Shown here: positions 36,926-46,626 of the stretch, in pieces
Position numbering within the stretch: position 1 is the stretch's first letter
Layout of the letters: each line of letters begins with the position of its first letter
Assembly (NCBI RefSeq): GCF_032116555.1
Contig: NZ_CP134949.1
Coordinates: 62,001 to 126,000 of the forward strand
Length of the DNA stretch: 64,000 nt
Direction: 5' to 3'
DNA from: Halobaculum sp. XH14
GTDB lineage: Archaea; Halobacteriota; Halobacteria; Halobacteriales; Haloferacaceae
Program-made: the position numbers and the translations under genes
Notes under the pieces: model-generated
Seen by the model: the letters and a program-made list of their open reading frames with translations, nothing else
Told to the model about the DNA's origin: nothing
The model's database searches: none

Positions 36926-38538
36926 CGAGCGACGATTCCGCCCCCGACGGGGGCACGACCGGCGAGGAACAGGGCGGCGCGAGTGACGACGGCGGCGTCG
37001 CGCTCGACCCCTGGGGCTCGGCGACCGTCGGCGACTACCGGAACCTGTTCGAGGAGTTCGGCATCGAGGAGTTCGACGAGATCATCGACCGCGTGCCCGA
37101 CCCCCACTACCTCATGCGCCGGGGGGTCATCTTCGGCCACCGGGGGTACGACGCCGTCGCCGACGCGATGCGAAAGGGCGACGAGGTCGCTGCCCTCTCG
37201 GGGTTCATGCCGACCGGCGACCCGCACATCGGGCACAAGCTGGTGTTCGACGAACTGATCTACCACCAGGAGCACGGCGCGGACACCTACGGGCTCATCG
37301 CGGACCTGGAGGCCCACTCGGCCCGCGGGATGACCTGGGCGGAGATCGACGAGCACGCGCGGGACTACCTGCTCTCGCTCATCGCGCTCGGCTTCGACGC
37401 CGAGGCGGGGACGCTGTACCGCCAGTCCACCAACCGGGAGCTCCAGGACCTCGCGTTCGAACTCGGCGCGAAGGCCAGGTTCGCGGAGTTCGAGGGCATC
37501 TACGGCTTCGACGGCGGCACCTCCGTCTCGCACATGCAGTCGGTCGTCACCCAGATGGCCGACATCCTCTACCCGCAACTGGTGGACGGGCCGAAGCCGA
37601 CCGTGATCCCGGTCGGCCCGGACCAGGACCCGCACGTCCGCTTCTCGCGGGACATCGCCGCGCGGATGCGCTACTTCAGGGTGACCGAGGCGTTCGCCAG
37701 CTTCGAGCTGACCGACGCCCAGCGCCGCGTCGTGGCGGTCGCGTACGACGACCGCGAGGCGTACGCCGCGGACCCGGAGACGCCCAGATGTGAGGAGGCC
37801 GCCGAGTACCTCCGGAACGCTCGCGGCGACGACGCGTCGGACGTCGGCGCGGCCGACGAGGTCGTGGACGCGACGATCGGGAAGCTGGCGAACGGCGGGA
37901 AGGAGCCGCTCCGCCCCCGGCTCCGCTTCCTCGACCGCAACGCGACCGACGGGGCGTTCGAGGCGCTGATCGACGCGGTCCCGGGCGAGAAGCGCGTCTT
38001 CGAGGCCCACGTCGACGCGTTCGAGATGGACCGCGCGGCCGCCGAGGAGCTCGCCCGCGAGGTCGAACTCGACCACGACGGCTACGGGTTCGTCGCGCCC
38101 TCGTCCATCTATCACCGGTTCATGACCGGCCTGACGGGCGGGAAGATGTCCTCCTCGGATCCCGCGTCCCACATCTCGCTGCTCGACGACCCCGAGGACG
38201 GTTACGACAAGGTGAAGGCCGCGACCACCGGCGGCCGCGAGACGGCCGAGAAGCAGCGCGAACTCGGCGGAAGGGCGGACGAGTGCCCCGTCTACGAGCT
38301 GTACGCCTACCTGCTGGCCGGCGACGACGACGAGTTCGCCGAGGCGGTGTACGAGGAATGCGTCGGCGGCGAGCGCCTCTGTGGCGACTGCAAGGAGCAG
38401 GCCGCCGGGCTGATGCGCGAGTTCCTCGCGGAGCACCAGGAGAAACGCGAAGAGGCCGAGGAACTGCTCGCGGACTTGGACGTCGACCTCGACGTCGACG
38501 CGAGCAGGCGCGGCGTCGCGCCGAGCGCCGAGGAGTAG
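36922..38538 (+). CDS. trpS: Tryptophanyl-tRNA synthetase
   Basis: A 538-residue class I synthetase, longer than bacterial TrpS, as usual in archaea. The HIGH-like motif is GFMPTGDPHIGHKL and the KMSKS loop is GGKMSSSDPASH. A C-terminal acidic extension rich in Glu/Asp follows. It is translationally coupled to endA (ATGA overlap). Haloarchaeal tRNA-Trp carries an intron removed by EndA, so the operon joins maturation and charging of the same tRNA. Confidence 0.96.
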   Translation: MTSDDSAPDGGTTGEEQGGASDDGGVALDPWGSATVGDYRNLFEEFGIEEFDEIIDRVPDPHYLMRRGVIFGHRGYDAVADAMRKGDEVAALSGFMPTGDPHIGHKLVFDELIYHQEHGADTYGLIADLEAHSARGMTWAEIDEHARDYLLSLIALGFDAEAGTLYRQSTNRELQDLAFELGAKARFAEFEGIYGFDGGTSVSHMQSVVTQMADILYPQLVDGPKPTVIPVGPDQDPHVRFSRDIAARMRYFRVTEAFASFELTDAQRRVVAVAYDDREAYAADPETPRCEEAAEYLRNARGDDASDVGAADEVVDATIGKLANGGKEPLRPRLRFLDRNATDGAFEALIDAVPGEKRVFEAHVDAFEMDRAAAEELAREVELDHDGYGFVAPSSIYHRFMTGLTGGKMSSSDPASHISLLDDPEDGYDKVKAATTGGRETAEKQRELGGRADECPVYELYAYLLAGDDDEFAEAVYEECVGGERLCGDCKEQAAGLMREFLAEHQEKREEAEELLADLDVDLDVDASRRGVAPSAEE

Positions 38539-42848: not shown

Positions 42849-43013
42849 GAGGTGTGTACCACACCGACCTAACCAATCCTCGATCCGACAGCCGAGAGGG
42901 ATTTCGAGGCAGCTTGCCAGCCGGACATAACCACCCAGAACAACCGAAATCATCCACCCGGAACCACGCGAACCCACGCAACGTTTTTGTCCGAACACGC
43001 CACAGCACCCGAC

Positions 43014-43094
43014 ATGGCACGAGAACCCGCCATCGACCGCACCGTCCCGCAGCCGACGACCGGCGGGTTCGCCTTCTTTTTCCGCCGCGCCTGA
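43014..43094 (+). CDS. Phe-rich leader peptide of pheST (candidate)
   Basis: A 26-codon open frame (ATG 43014, TGA 43092). Its last ten residues are GGFAFFFRRA, four Phe in five positions, in a proteome where Phe is a minor residue. The TATA-like GTTTTTG at 42983-42989 is centred 28 bases before the ATG, so transcription would begin at the ATG and translation would be leaderless. It lies 180 bases upstream of pheS on the same strand. Bacterial pheST has an analogous Phe-rich leader (PheM). The role as an attenuator sensing Phe-tRNA is inference. A chance open frame is possible, but unlikely given the matching promoter, hairpins and downstream gene. Confidence 0.6.
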   Translation: MAREPAIDRTVPQPTTGGFAFFFRRA

Positions 43095-43106
43095 GCGGCG
43101 GACCCG
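43023..43106 (+). promoter_or_regulatory. Candidate transcription attenuator of the pheST operon
   Basis: Helix 1 is a perfect 9-bp stem: GAACCCGCC (43023-43031) with GGCGGGTTC (43062-43070). It is followed at once by the T-rich GCCTTCTTTTTCC, which is also the Phe codon run, so helix 1 plus the T tract resembles a terminator. Bases 43064-43073 can instead pair with 43097-43106 (10 pairs, one G-U), which excludes helix 1. A third hairpin, 43082-43088 with 43095-43101 (7 bp), spans the leader stop and competes with the second pairing. A ribosome paused on the Phe codons would cover the 3' arm of helix 1. Confidence 0.5.
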
Positions 43107-43273
43107 AGCGGCCCCGGGAGGGACCGCGACGCGAAACCGTTCGGTTCGGCACGCGGTTCGGAGCGGCGACGTTCCCCGAACCGACGACCATCGGAACGTG
43201 CGGCGTCGCTCGCCCGCGCGAACCACACAACAGAACGCCTATCGGACGACACGCCACACACCAACCCAAGACC

Positions 43274-44839
43274 ATGCCACGCTCACCTGCGGAGGTCGCG
43301 CTGCTGGAGGCCGCCAGCGCGACCGACGCGAAGACCGTCGAACAGCTCGCCGCGGAGACCGACTTGAAGCCGGAGACGGTCACCCGCGCCGCCTTCGAAC
43401 TCCGGGACGAGGGGCTCGTCGCCGTCGAGGAGGCGACCGAGACGACCGCGACGGTCACCGAGGAGGGACGACGGTACGCCGCGGACGGGCTGCCCGAGGT
43501 CCGGCTCTACCGGGCCGCGGTCGACGCCGGAGCCGACGATGACCCCGTCTCGATGGGGCAAGTCATCGGTGCGTCGGGGCTCGAGGGGCCGGAAGTCGAC
43601 ATCGCGCTCTCGAACTATTCGCGGAAGGGGTACGGCGAGATCGACGCCGGGAACGTCACCGCCTCGGCGGACGCGCCGGTTCGGACCGCCGAGGACAAGG
43701 AGAAGACCACCCTCGAACTGCTCGCGGGGAACGCCGACGACGGCGACGAAGTTCCCGAGTGGGAGGCTGACGTGATCGAGCAACTCGACCGCCGCGGGCT
43801 CGTCGAGGTGTCCGAACGGACCGTCCGCTCGGTGACGCTCACCGACGAGGGCGTGACGGCGCTGATGGAGGGCGTCGAGGCCGCCGAGACCGCCGACCGC
43901 CTGACGCCCGAGCTGCTGACGTCGGGCGAGTGGGAGGACGCCGAGTTCTCGGCGTACAACGTCGAGGCCGACGCGCCCGAGATCGAGGGCGGTCGGAAAC
44001 ACGTCCTCCGCGGGATGGCCGACCGCGTGACGGACGTGCTCGTCGGCATGGGGTTCCGCGAGATGGACGGCCCGCACGCCGACGCGGACTTCTGGATCAA
44101 CGACTGCCTGTTCATGCCCCAGGACCACCCGGCACGGACCCACTGGGACCGCTTCGCACTCGACGTGCCGCCGGTGCGCGAACTGCCCGAGCAACTGGTC
44201 GACCGCGTCGAGGCCGCCCACCGCGAGGGCGTCGGCGAGGACGGCGACGGCTACCACTCGCCGTGGTCCGAGGAGTTCGCGCGGGCGATCGCGCTGCGGG
44301 GCCACACCACCTCGCTGTCGATGCGTTACCTCTCGGGGTACGCGGACGCCGACTTCGGCGGCGAAGGGGGGCCGCCTCAGCGCACCGACATCGAGCCGCC
44401 ACAGCGGTACTTCTCCGTCGAGAAGGTGTACCGCAACGACACCCTCGACGCCACGCACCTGCTGGAGTTCTTCCAGATCGAGGGGTGGGTGATGGCCGAG
44501 ACCCTCTCGGTCCGGGACCTGATGGGCACCTTCGAGGAGTTCTACCGGCAGTTCGGCATCGAGGACGTCCGGTTCAAGCCCCACTACAACCCATACACGG
44601 AGCCGAGCTTCGAGCTGTTCGGCACCCACCCCGAGACGGGCGAGGAGATCGAGATCGGCAACTCGGGGATGTTCCGCGACGAGGTGCTGGACACGCTCGG
44701 GGTCGACTGCGACGTGATGGCCTGGGGGCTCGCGCTCGAACGGCTCGCCATGCTCACGACCGGGGCCGAAGACATCCGCGACCTGCACGGCACGCTCGCG
44801 GACATCGAGTTCCTGCGGACCGCGGAGGTGACCTACTGA
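43274..44839 (+). CDS. pheS: Phenylalanyl-tRNA synthetase, alpha subunit
   Basis: A 521-residue catalytic subunit. The N-terminal 200 residues are winged-helix tRNA-binding modules (LAAETDLKPETVTRAAFELRD-like). The class II core follows: motif 1 region HVLRGMADRVTDVLVGMGF, motif 2 region YFSVEKVYRNDTLDATHLLEF, and motif 3 GLALERLAMLTTG. The ATG at 43274 is the family start. Its stop overlaps the pheT ATG (TGATG). A weaker promoter-like CCTATCGG (43238-43245) lies about 30 bases upstream, so leader-independent transcription cannot be excluded. Confidence 0.96.
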   Translation: MPRSPAEVALLEAASATDAKTVEQLAAETDLKPETVTRAAFELRDEGLVAVEEATETTATVTEEGRRYAADGLPEVRLYRAAVDAGADDDPVSMGQVIGASGLEGPEVDIALSNYSRKGYGEIDAGNVTASADAPVRTAEDKEKTTLELLAGNADDGDEVPEWEADVIEQLDRRGLVEVSERTVRSVTLTDEGVTALMEGVEAAETADRLTPELLTSGEWEDAEFSAYNVEADAPEIEGGRKHVLRGMADRVTDVLVGMGFREMDGPHADADFWINDCLFMPQDHPARTHWDRFALDVPPVRELPEQLVDRVEAAHREGVGEDGDGYHSPWSEEFARAIALRGHTTSLSMRYLSGYADADFGGEGGPPQRTDIEPPQRYFSVEKVYRNDTLDATHLLEFFQIEGWVMAETLSVRDLMGTFEEFYRQFGIEDVRFKPHYNPYTEPSFELFGTHPETGEEIEIGNSGMFRDEVLDTLGVDCDVMAWGLALERLAMLTTGAEDIRDLHGTLADIEFLRTAEVTY

Positions 44840-46626
44840 TGCCCGTCGTCGACATCGACACGGACGAACTGCGCGAACTGACCGGCCACGACGAGAAGAC
44901 CGACGGGGAGTTCGAGGAGGACCTGTTCGCGCTCGGCCTCGAGTTCGAGGGCGAGACCGACGAGGGCGACCTGCAGTTCGAGTTCGGGCCGGACCGGCTC
45001 GACCGCCTGTCGGTCGAGGGCGTCGCACGGTCGCTCCGCTACCAGTACGGCGACGCCCGCGGCGTCCACGTCCCCGACCCGAACGACGCGGACTGGACCA
45101 TCGAGGTGGACGAGTCGGTGCCCGACGAGCGCCCGTTCGTCACCGGCGCGGTCGTCCGCGGCCTCGACCTCGACGAGTCGGCGCTCGACTCGCTCATCCA
45201 GCTCCAGGAGAAGCTGCACGCGACGATGGGCCGCGAGCGCGCCAAGGGCGCCATCGGCATCCACGACCTCACGATGCTGAAGGGCGGCCGGCTCTCGCAG
45301 GAGTCCGAGAGCTCCGGAACCGCCGAGGGGCCGGCCTCGAAGATCCAGGGGACGCCAAACACCATCACCTACCGTGGGGTCGACCCGGACGGCGACCGGT
45401 TCGTCCCGCTGGACTCGAACGCGGAACGCACGCCCGCCGAAGTGCTGGAAGAGCACCCGGTCGGGGGGAAGTACGCCGACCTCGTCGCGGACCTGGATCG
45501 CTACCCGGCGATCTACGACGAACTCGGCCTGTTCTCGTTCCCGCCGGTCATCAACGGCCGCCGGACCGAGGTGTCGACCGACTCGCGGGACCTGTTCGTC
45601 GAACTCACCGGCACCGACCAGTGGACCATCGACCGGATGTGCGTCATCATCTGCTACGCGCTCGCCGCCCGCGGCGGGACGCTGGAGGAGGTCGAGGTCG
45701 TCTACGACGACGGCGCGACCCACCCCGACGAGTACGGGCCGGAACTGATCCGACCGAACCTCGAGACCGACGAGAAGTCGGTGAGCCACGAGCGCATCGA
45801 GTCGACCCTCGGCGTCGAACTCGACCGTGACGAGGTGGTCGACCTGTTCGAGCGCTCGGGGCTGGACGCCGCATACAGCCTGGGAGAGGAGGCGACGACA
45901 TACGACGTGACGGTGCCGCCGTACCGCGTCGACGTGCTCCACCCGCTCGACCTCATCGACGACGTGGGGCGGGCGTACGGCTTCAACTCGCTCGACCCGA
46001 CCTACCCCGACATCGGCACCATCGGCGGCCGTCACGAGCGCTCGCGGCTGGAGGACGCCGTGCGGACGAGCCTCGTCGGCCTGGGCTTTCAGGACACCCT
46101 GAACTTCCACATGACGAGCGCCGCCGAGAACTACGACCGGATGGGCGTCGAGGAGGGGAGCGACGTCCTCGGCGCCGGCGAGCGCGCCGAGATCACCAGC
46201 CCGTACAGCGAGGAGTACACCCAGCTTCGGACCTGGGCGCTCCCCTCGCTCGCGCAGGTGCTGGAGAACAACACCCACCGGCCCTACCCGCAGGACCTCG
46301 CGGAGGTCGGCTTCGTCGCCCGCCGCGACGACGAGGCGAACACCCGGGTCGCCGAATCGCGCCACGTCGCCGCCGCACTCGCACGGACGGACGCCTCCTA
46401 CGAGGACGCGAAGGCCCGCCTGCAGGCGCTGTGTGACGACTTCGACGCCGCCCTGGAGACGCCCGCGACCGACCACCCGAGCTTCATTTCGGGTCGAGTC
46501 GCCGCGGTCGTCGTGAACGGGGACGCCGTCGGCGTCGTGGGGGAACTCCACCCCGCCGTGCTGGTCGAACACGACATGGAGGTTCCCGTGGCCGCGTTCG
46601 AGTTCGACCTCTCCGCGTTAGCCTGA
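44839..46626 (+). CDS. pheT: Phenylalanyl-tRNA synthetase, beta subunit
   Basis: A 595-residue subunit of archaeal/eukaryotic type, without the bacterial EMAP-like N-terminal domain. It has B3/B4 editing-domain sequence (KLHATMGRERAKGAIGIHDL near residue 130, FPPVINGRRTEV), B5 (VPPYRVDVLHPLDLIDDVGR) and a catalytic-like C-terminal domain (LGFQDTLNFHMTS, ADLGEVGF-like QDLAEVGFVAR). It forms an alpha2beta2 enzyme with PheS, to which it is translationally coupled. Confidence 0.96.
   Translation: MPVVDIDTDELRELTGHDEKTDGEFEEDLFALGLEFEGETDEGDLQFEFGPDRLDRLSVEGVARSLRYQYGDARGVHVPDPNDADWTIEVDESVPDERPFVTGAVVRGLDLDESALDSLIQLQEKLHATMGRERAKGAIGIHDLTMLKGGRLSQESESSGTAEGPASKIQGTPNTITYRGVDPDGDRFVPLDSNAERTPAEVLEEHPVGGKYADLVADLDRYPAIYDELGLFSFPPVINGRRTEVSTDSRDLFVELTGTDQWTIDRMCVIICYALAARGGTLEEVEVVYDDGATHPDEYGPELIRPNLETDEKSVSHERIESTLGVELDRDEVVDLFERSGLDAAYSLGEEATTYDVTVPPYRVDVLHPLDLIDDVGRAYGFNSLDPTYPDIGTIGGRHERSRLEDAVRTSLVGLGFQDTLNFHMTSAAENYDRMGVEEGSDVLGAGERAEITSPYSEEYTQLRTWALPSLAQVLENNTHRPYPQDLAEVGFVARRDDEANTRVAESRHVAAALARTDASYEDAKARLQALCDDFDAALETPATDHPSFISGRVAAVVVNGDAVGVVGELHPAVLVEHDMEVPVAAFEFDLSALA

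Follow-up and report, generated by a model that had tools for sequence, protein, structure and literature searches.

The E. coli pheM-pheST leader and the trp-type leaders are leader-peptide attenuators that carry a run of codons for the cognate amino acid. T-box leaders of bacterial synthetase genes likewise place a synthetase operon under the control of tRNA charging, but they read the tRNA directly and contain no leader peptide. Attenuation by a leader peptide is thus known from bacteria, and we found no description of it in archaea in the open-access literature. The initial annotation of the DNA analyzed here had made the same statement for archaeal synthetase operons, and it needs one qualifier: an upstream ORF (uORF) in front of pheS had already been listed, without a mechanism, in Hfx. 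volcanii. In that dRNA-seq study (Babski et al. 2016, PMC4983044), a 26-aa uORF with a pI of 5.9 is placed in the 5′UTR of pheS (HVO_2948) and a 23-aa uORF before the tryptophan--tRNA ligase gene HVO_A0127, both among 16 uORFs in 5′UTRs of 150-250 nt. Neither main gene is given a separate transcription start site (TSS) there, and at pheS the leader and the gene share one transcript, with a 5′UTR continuous through the uORF. The passage on these uORFs treats transcription starts and peptide size only, and leaves the Phe and Trp codons, hairpins, conservation and regulation undiscussed.

Here we analyzed a 64,000-nucleotide stretch of the Halobaculum sp. XH14 genome (the window) that contains pheST. 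Comparison with other haloarchaea indicates that the Phe leader upstream of pheST is real and deeply conserved, and we consider it likely that this leader is a cis-regulatory, attenuator-like sensor of charged tRNA-Phe that works by ribosome stalling. As in the pheM-pheST and trp-type leaders, a short ORF with a cognate codon run lies upstream of synthetase genes (Phe at pheS and, in a second system, Trp at trpS2), conserved and covarying hairpins overlap the ORF and follow its stop codon, and the operon matches the codons. Unlike pheM-pheST, the haloarchaeal leader has an archaeal promoter at leaderless spacing and an unrelated sequence, its U-rich tract lies inside the Phe codons, it lacks a covariation-supported alternative helix, and it has an added hairpin with a conserved internal loop. 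No terminator downstream of the sensing codons, and no U-tract terminator past the leader stop, is seen in the window, although one of the factor-dependent type would be invisible in sequence. The features are collected in Table 1, and every position assigned by the initial annotation checks out. Its identification of the downstream genes as pheST is borne out by HMM matches; the stop of pheS and the start of pheT overlap as TGATG, and the upstream neighbor, on the opposite strand, is uvrB by HMM. The trpS1 gene of the same genome lies on the + strand about 5 kb upstream of the pheS region (window about 37186-38463), and in several relatives trpS1 adjoins pheS directly.

Table 1. Features of the pheST leader region, in window positions
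Feature	Position	Strand	Support
Leader promoter P1, BRE-like AACG and TATA-like TTTTT	42980..42989	+	Sequence; spacing in homologues; long pheS 5′UTR with the uORF mapped in Hfx. volcanii
Leader ORF, 26 codons, MAREPAIDRTVPQPTTGGFAFFFRRA and stop	43014..43094	+	91 distinct homologous leaders; model match in own genome
Hairpin 1, 5′ arm, GAACCCGCC, Glu-Pro codons	43023..43031	+	Covariation
Hairpin 1, 3′ arm, GGCGGGTTC, Gly-Phe codons	43062..43070	+	Covariation
Phe codons F19, F21, F22, F23, including TTCTTTTTC	43068..43082	+	Sequence; TTT enrichment; T5C at 43077-43082
Hairpin 2, CGG-YGGAN-[stem-loop]-NGAAA-CCG	about 43095..43140	+	Covariation; R2 model matches
Putative pheS-proximal promoter P2, AGAACGCCTATC, degenerate in the window	43232..43243	+	Box kept across loci
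pheS, phenylalanine--tRNA ligase alpha	43274..44839	+	NF003210 588 bits, TIGR00468 (HMM)
pheT, phenylalanine--tRNA ligase beta	44839..46626	+	TIGR00471 431 bits (HMM)

The Phe-rich frame first read from the single sequence is found across haloarchaea when the spacers upstream of pheS are aligned. In a redundant sample of 137 pheS upstream regions, 99 contain a Phe-tailed ORF (91 distinct leaders), and these come from most haloarchaeal families. The leaders are 23-30 codons long, follow the consensus M-A/T-S/P-E-P/S ... G-F-G-F-F-F and in most cases stop 1-3 codons beyond GFGFFF. The 26-aa uORF of Hfx. volcanii (PMC4983044) occupies the same position as the leader of a close relative in our set (L094), which is also 26 aa long and has a pI of 5.94 as against 5.9. 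A covariance model of the leader gave 34 strong matches (E<1e-5) among 60 relatives, all 34 directly upstream of pheS, and in the Halobaculum genome itself the window locus was the best match (E 3.5e-13). Among 295 genomes sampled from the phylum, the model matched 38 times, always within the window's own order and never outside it. At one locus (L111, G011:C1:2640500-2642200), full-length pheS is preceded by an additional, truncated copy of its N-terminal region, and a second, weak match to the leader model lies about 0.9 kb further upstream. The covariance model is blind to reading frames, yet its match lengths are all multiples of 3, and those of the first search, in 60 relatives, fall into six length classes, which argues for a reading frame. 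TTT and TTC interchange freely within the Phe run, indicating that what is conserved is the coding of Phe and not a fixed T-tract, and the Phe codon in the hairpin 1 arm is TTC in all 63 leaders. These observations point to a frame that is translated and on which an RNA structure is superimposed.

The perfect 9-bp stem noted initially, now called hairpin 1, is present and, like the leader ORF, lies far beyond chance by comparison. It pairs codons 3-6 (CC-GAA-CCC-G) with the Gly-Phe codons (C-GGG-TTC-GG) that immediately precede the Phe run. In its 9-pair core helix 96% of cells are standard pairs, and the strong covariation that one would look for in such a stem was found: double-sided changes number 52 against 19.5 in shuffles (0/500 shuffles), with 0/1000 in a species-swap test. 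Whole clades have compensated variants of the helix, including GAATCC/GGATTC, GAACGC/GCGTTC, GAACAC/GTGTTC and CCGGACCCG/CGGGTCCGG.

The same comparison points to a second conserved element, hairpin 2, which the initial annotation had missed. In most loci it starts 2-11 nt past the leader stop. Its outer stem covaries well past the fixed core, as in GGTCGG/CCGACC, GAGCGG/CCGCTC and TCGGCCGG/CCGGTCGA; double-changed cells number 83 against 41 in shuffles (0/500), and the species-swap test gave 0/1000. Hairpin 2 accompanies the leader in 90 of 99 loci, and a loose pattern detects it in 5 of 37 leader-less loci, where most of the hits are chance matches. The internal loop is invariant in 55 aligned members, a figure biased by a search pattern that demanded part of the loop. 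Its unusual conservation suggests more than a simple hairpin. A k-turn was considered for this loop, but the loop is symmetric and therefore a poor fit, and we make no such claim. We also considered hairpin 2 as a general motif and rejected the idea: apart from two weak matches, the R2 model finds it at pheS leaders only.

Two further structures had been proposed from the single sequence, and both are present there. An alternative 10-pair helix (43064-43073 with 43097-43106) would exclude hairpin 1, but it gains no covariation among the aligned leaders that would speak for mutually exclusive pairing of the hairpin arms (73.5% paired against 75.1% in shuffles); its TTCG:YGGA core is invariant, so covariation is uninformative for that core. 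A hairpin across the leader stop fares no better, since 333 of 1000 species swaps score as high. Minimum free energy (MFE) folding of 43014-43160 gives a structure no more stable than shuffles (z -1.25), which makes the energy of one sequence uninformative for an RNA so rich in GC. Rfam models give no match at gathering level in any of six related loci, and the T-box family is absent from the matches to the window region even at E 10. The T-box covariance model gives no support for a T-box riboswitch at this locus.

A leader of the same kind precedes trpS2 (the type orthologous to HVO_A0127). It carries a conserved WRW, as in MNAAPWRWWSPASGADSP..., MRSALRTWRWQTPGERTVS and MVSTSHANCWRWHAFREVDSIAV, and its sequence is wholly different from that of the pheS leader. 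The Trp codons occupy the loop of a hairpin that covaries: its own score of 27.3 exceeds the maximum of 1000 swaps (22.9). These leaders were found at loci L140-L144, L146, L170-L199, L254 and L255, and trpS2 is often plasmid-borne. The WRW leader of Hfx. mediterranei is 23 aa long, the length of the Hfx. volcanii trpS uORF reported in PMC4983044. A conserved GCTCACTCGCTTTCTC-like stretch follows the leader stop; pairing of the hairpin 3′ arm with this post-stop sequence was weakly supported (17/1000) and was set aside. A simple ORF screen found no cognate leader at trpS1 in 23 loci, and no cognate-codon leader in small samples of hisS, archaeal leuS and thrS. Thus, in two systems, the leader codons specify the amino acid charged by the synthetase encoded downstream. 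Another reading is that the pheS leader ORF encodes a functional microprotein that precedes pheS by chance. The ends of the peptide are indeed conserved (EP close to the start and GFGFFF close to the end), and the ORF has a promoter of its own. However, the middle of the peptide is unconserved, the EP and GF codons are accounted for by RNA pairing with compensatory changes, the leader is always next to pheS, and its Trp counterpart shares none of its sequence. We regard a chance microprotein as very improbable.

The TATA-like GTTTTTG proposed for the leader is found at 42983-42989, 28 nt 5′ of the leader ATG. This spacing is the one expected for a leaderless haloarchaeal mRNA, and in most homologues a CGnAACGTTTTTG-type box precedes the leader ATG by roughly the same distance. 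Most loci, and most of the leader-less ones among them, also have a GGAACNGYTAAC-type box some 40 nt upstream of pheS. This box is probably a second promoter, and its conservation even at leader-less loci suggests that pheST may have a leader-independent transcript as well. No TSS is listed at the position of this box in Hfx. volcanii (PMC4983044). The gap between the leader stop and pheS is 179 nt in the window and 105-245 nt in most loci. At L127 it is only 37 nt, and hairpin 2 and the pheS-proximal box are both missing, leaving the leader promoter as the only visible promoter there. Several genera have lost the leader; it is absent in Halohasta, Halonotius and several Halorubrum, among others. 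Loci L014, L015, L017, L021, L058 and L088, among others, have the pheS-proximal box and neither leader nor hairpin 2.

The Phe run forms a U-rich tract directly 3′ of hairpin 1, and the terminator-like combination of this stem with U-rich codons, remarked on at the outset, is conserved. Of the Phe codons in the run, 50 of 170 are TTT, compared with 79 of 1527 for pheS, and 27 of 63 leaders contain an exact T5C, a sequence that gives 95% termination in an Hfx. volcanii reporter (PMC7237163). As the authors of that study noted, T stretches of this kind are very rare within the coding sequences of the GC-rich Hfx. volcanii genome. In the window, the only T5C of the leader region is the one within the Phe codons, and no T-run longer than 2 occurs between the leader stop and pheS (43095-43273). 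The initial annotation had proposed that a ribosome, by stalling on the Phe codons, blocks termination at that same run. This proposal fails on geometry: RNA polymerase passes the Phe run before its codons reach the ribosome, so a ribosome stalled there acts on a T-run already transcribed and cannot decide termination at it. A switch at the U-run cannot, by this reasoning, sense Phe, and the sensing step must act downstream of the run. The same geometry, the T5C leaders and the strength of T5C as a terminator would all suit a partial terminator at hairpin 1 that senses ribosome loading, and hence the state of translation in general, and in which the Phe codons mainly supply the T-tract. We consider such a terminator improbable, since 36 of the 63 leaders have no T5C, TTCTTCTTC keeps Phe without a T-run, the trpS2 leader keeps its Trp codons (TGG) without any T-tract, and hairpin 2 would stay unexplained.

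We instead favor an attenuator-like leader that senses Phe. In the scenario that we envision, hairpin 1 and the U-rich Phe codons would make RNA polymerase pause or partly terminate if no ribosome is loaded on the 5′ AUG, and the polymerases that survive would thus have a ribosome close behind. Hairpin 1 and the U-run would form a checkpoint for a loaded ribosome, like the pause hairpin of bacterial leaders. When Phe-tRNA is plentiful, the ribosome would reach the stop codon, where with a typical footprint it should cover the 5′ arm of hairpin 2, and would then leave; hairpin 1 would re-form, and the polymerase, now on an untranslated spacer, would be exposed to factor-dependent termination of the FttA type, which we propose because no U-tract is visible past the leader stop. 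When Phe-tRNA is scarce, the ribosome would stall on the run, whose first Phe codon lies 5-6 codons before the stop, a distance that, again with typical footprints, would leave hairpin 2 free. Hairpin 1 would stay open and hairpin 2 would fold at once, serving as an antiterminator or a factor-binding site that allows pheST to be transcribed. The physical linkage of transcription and translation in haloarchaea has biochemical support (PMC8576121), and the exclusion of FttA by a coupled ribosome is a hypothesis only (PMC11616081). We are fairly confident that the leader responds to Phe; the specific route, with hairpin 2 as antiterminator and FttA as terminator, is offered tentatively. The response could also be post-transcriptional, with a stalled ribosome keeping hairpin 1 open and protecting or remodeling the 5′UTR, so that the stability or translation initiation of pheST mRNA is altered without any termination. 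The continuous 5′UTR through the uORF to pheS in Hfx. volcanii (PMC4983044), the missing U-tract after the leader stop in the window and an invariant internal loop that would suit a bound protein are consistent with this model. On the other hand, the enrichment of T5C immediately 3′ of hairpin 1 resembles a transcription signal, and in most loci the distance from the leader to pheS is too great for coupling by termination-reinitiation, an effect that wanes beyond 30-40 nt (review PMC12548453). On balance we think a purely post-transcriptional response rather unlikely.

Control by a stalling ribosome needs a polymerase and a ribosome that cooperate on the same RNA. Conserved, amino-acid-matched leaders before two synthetase genes would allow transcription-translation coupling to be tested directly in an archaeon amenable to genetics, and its regulatory use would likewise come within reach of experiment in archaea. 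We see about an even chance that haloarchaea evolved their own attenuator class for aminoacyl-tRNA synthetases (Phe for pheST, Trp for trpS2), combining leaderless leader mRNAs, archaeal termination at U-tracts or by FttA where bacteria use intrinsic terminators, and a dedicated antiterminator hairpin with a conserved internal loop. Reading these ORFs as leaders would account for two orphan uORFs of Hfx. volcanii, and it predicts how haloarchaea may sense the charging of their Phe and Trp tRNAs.
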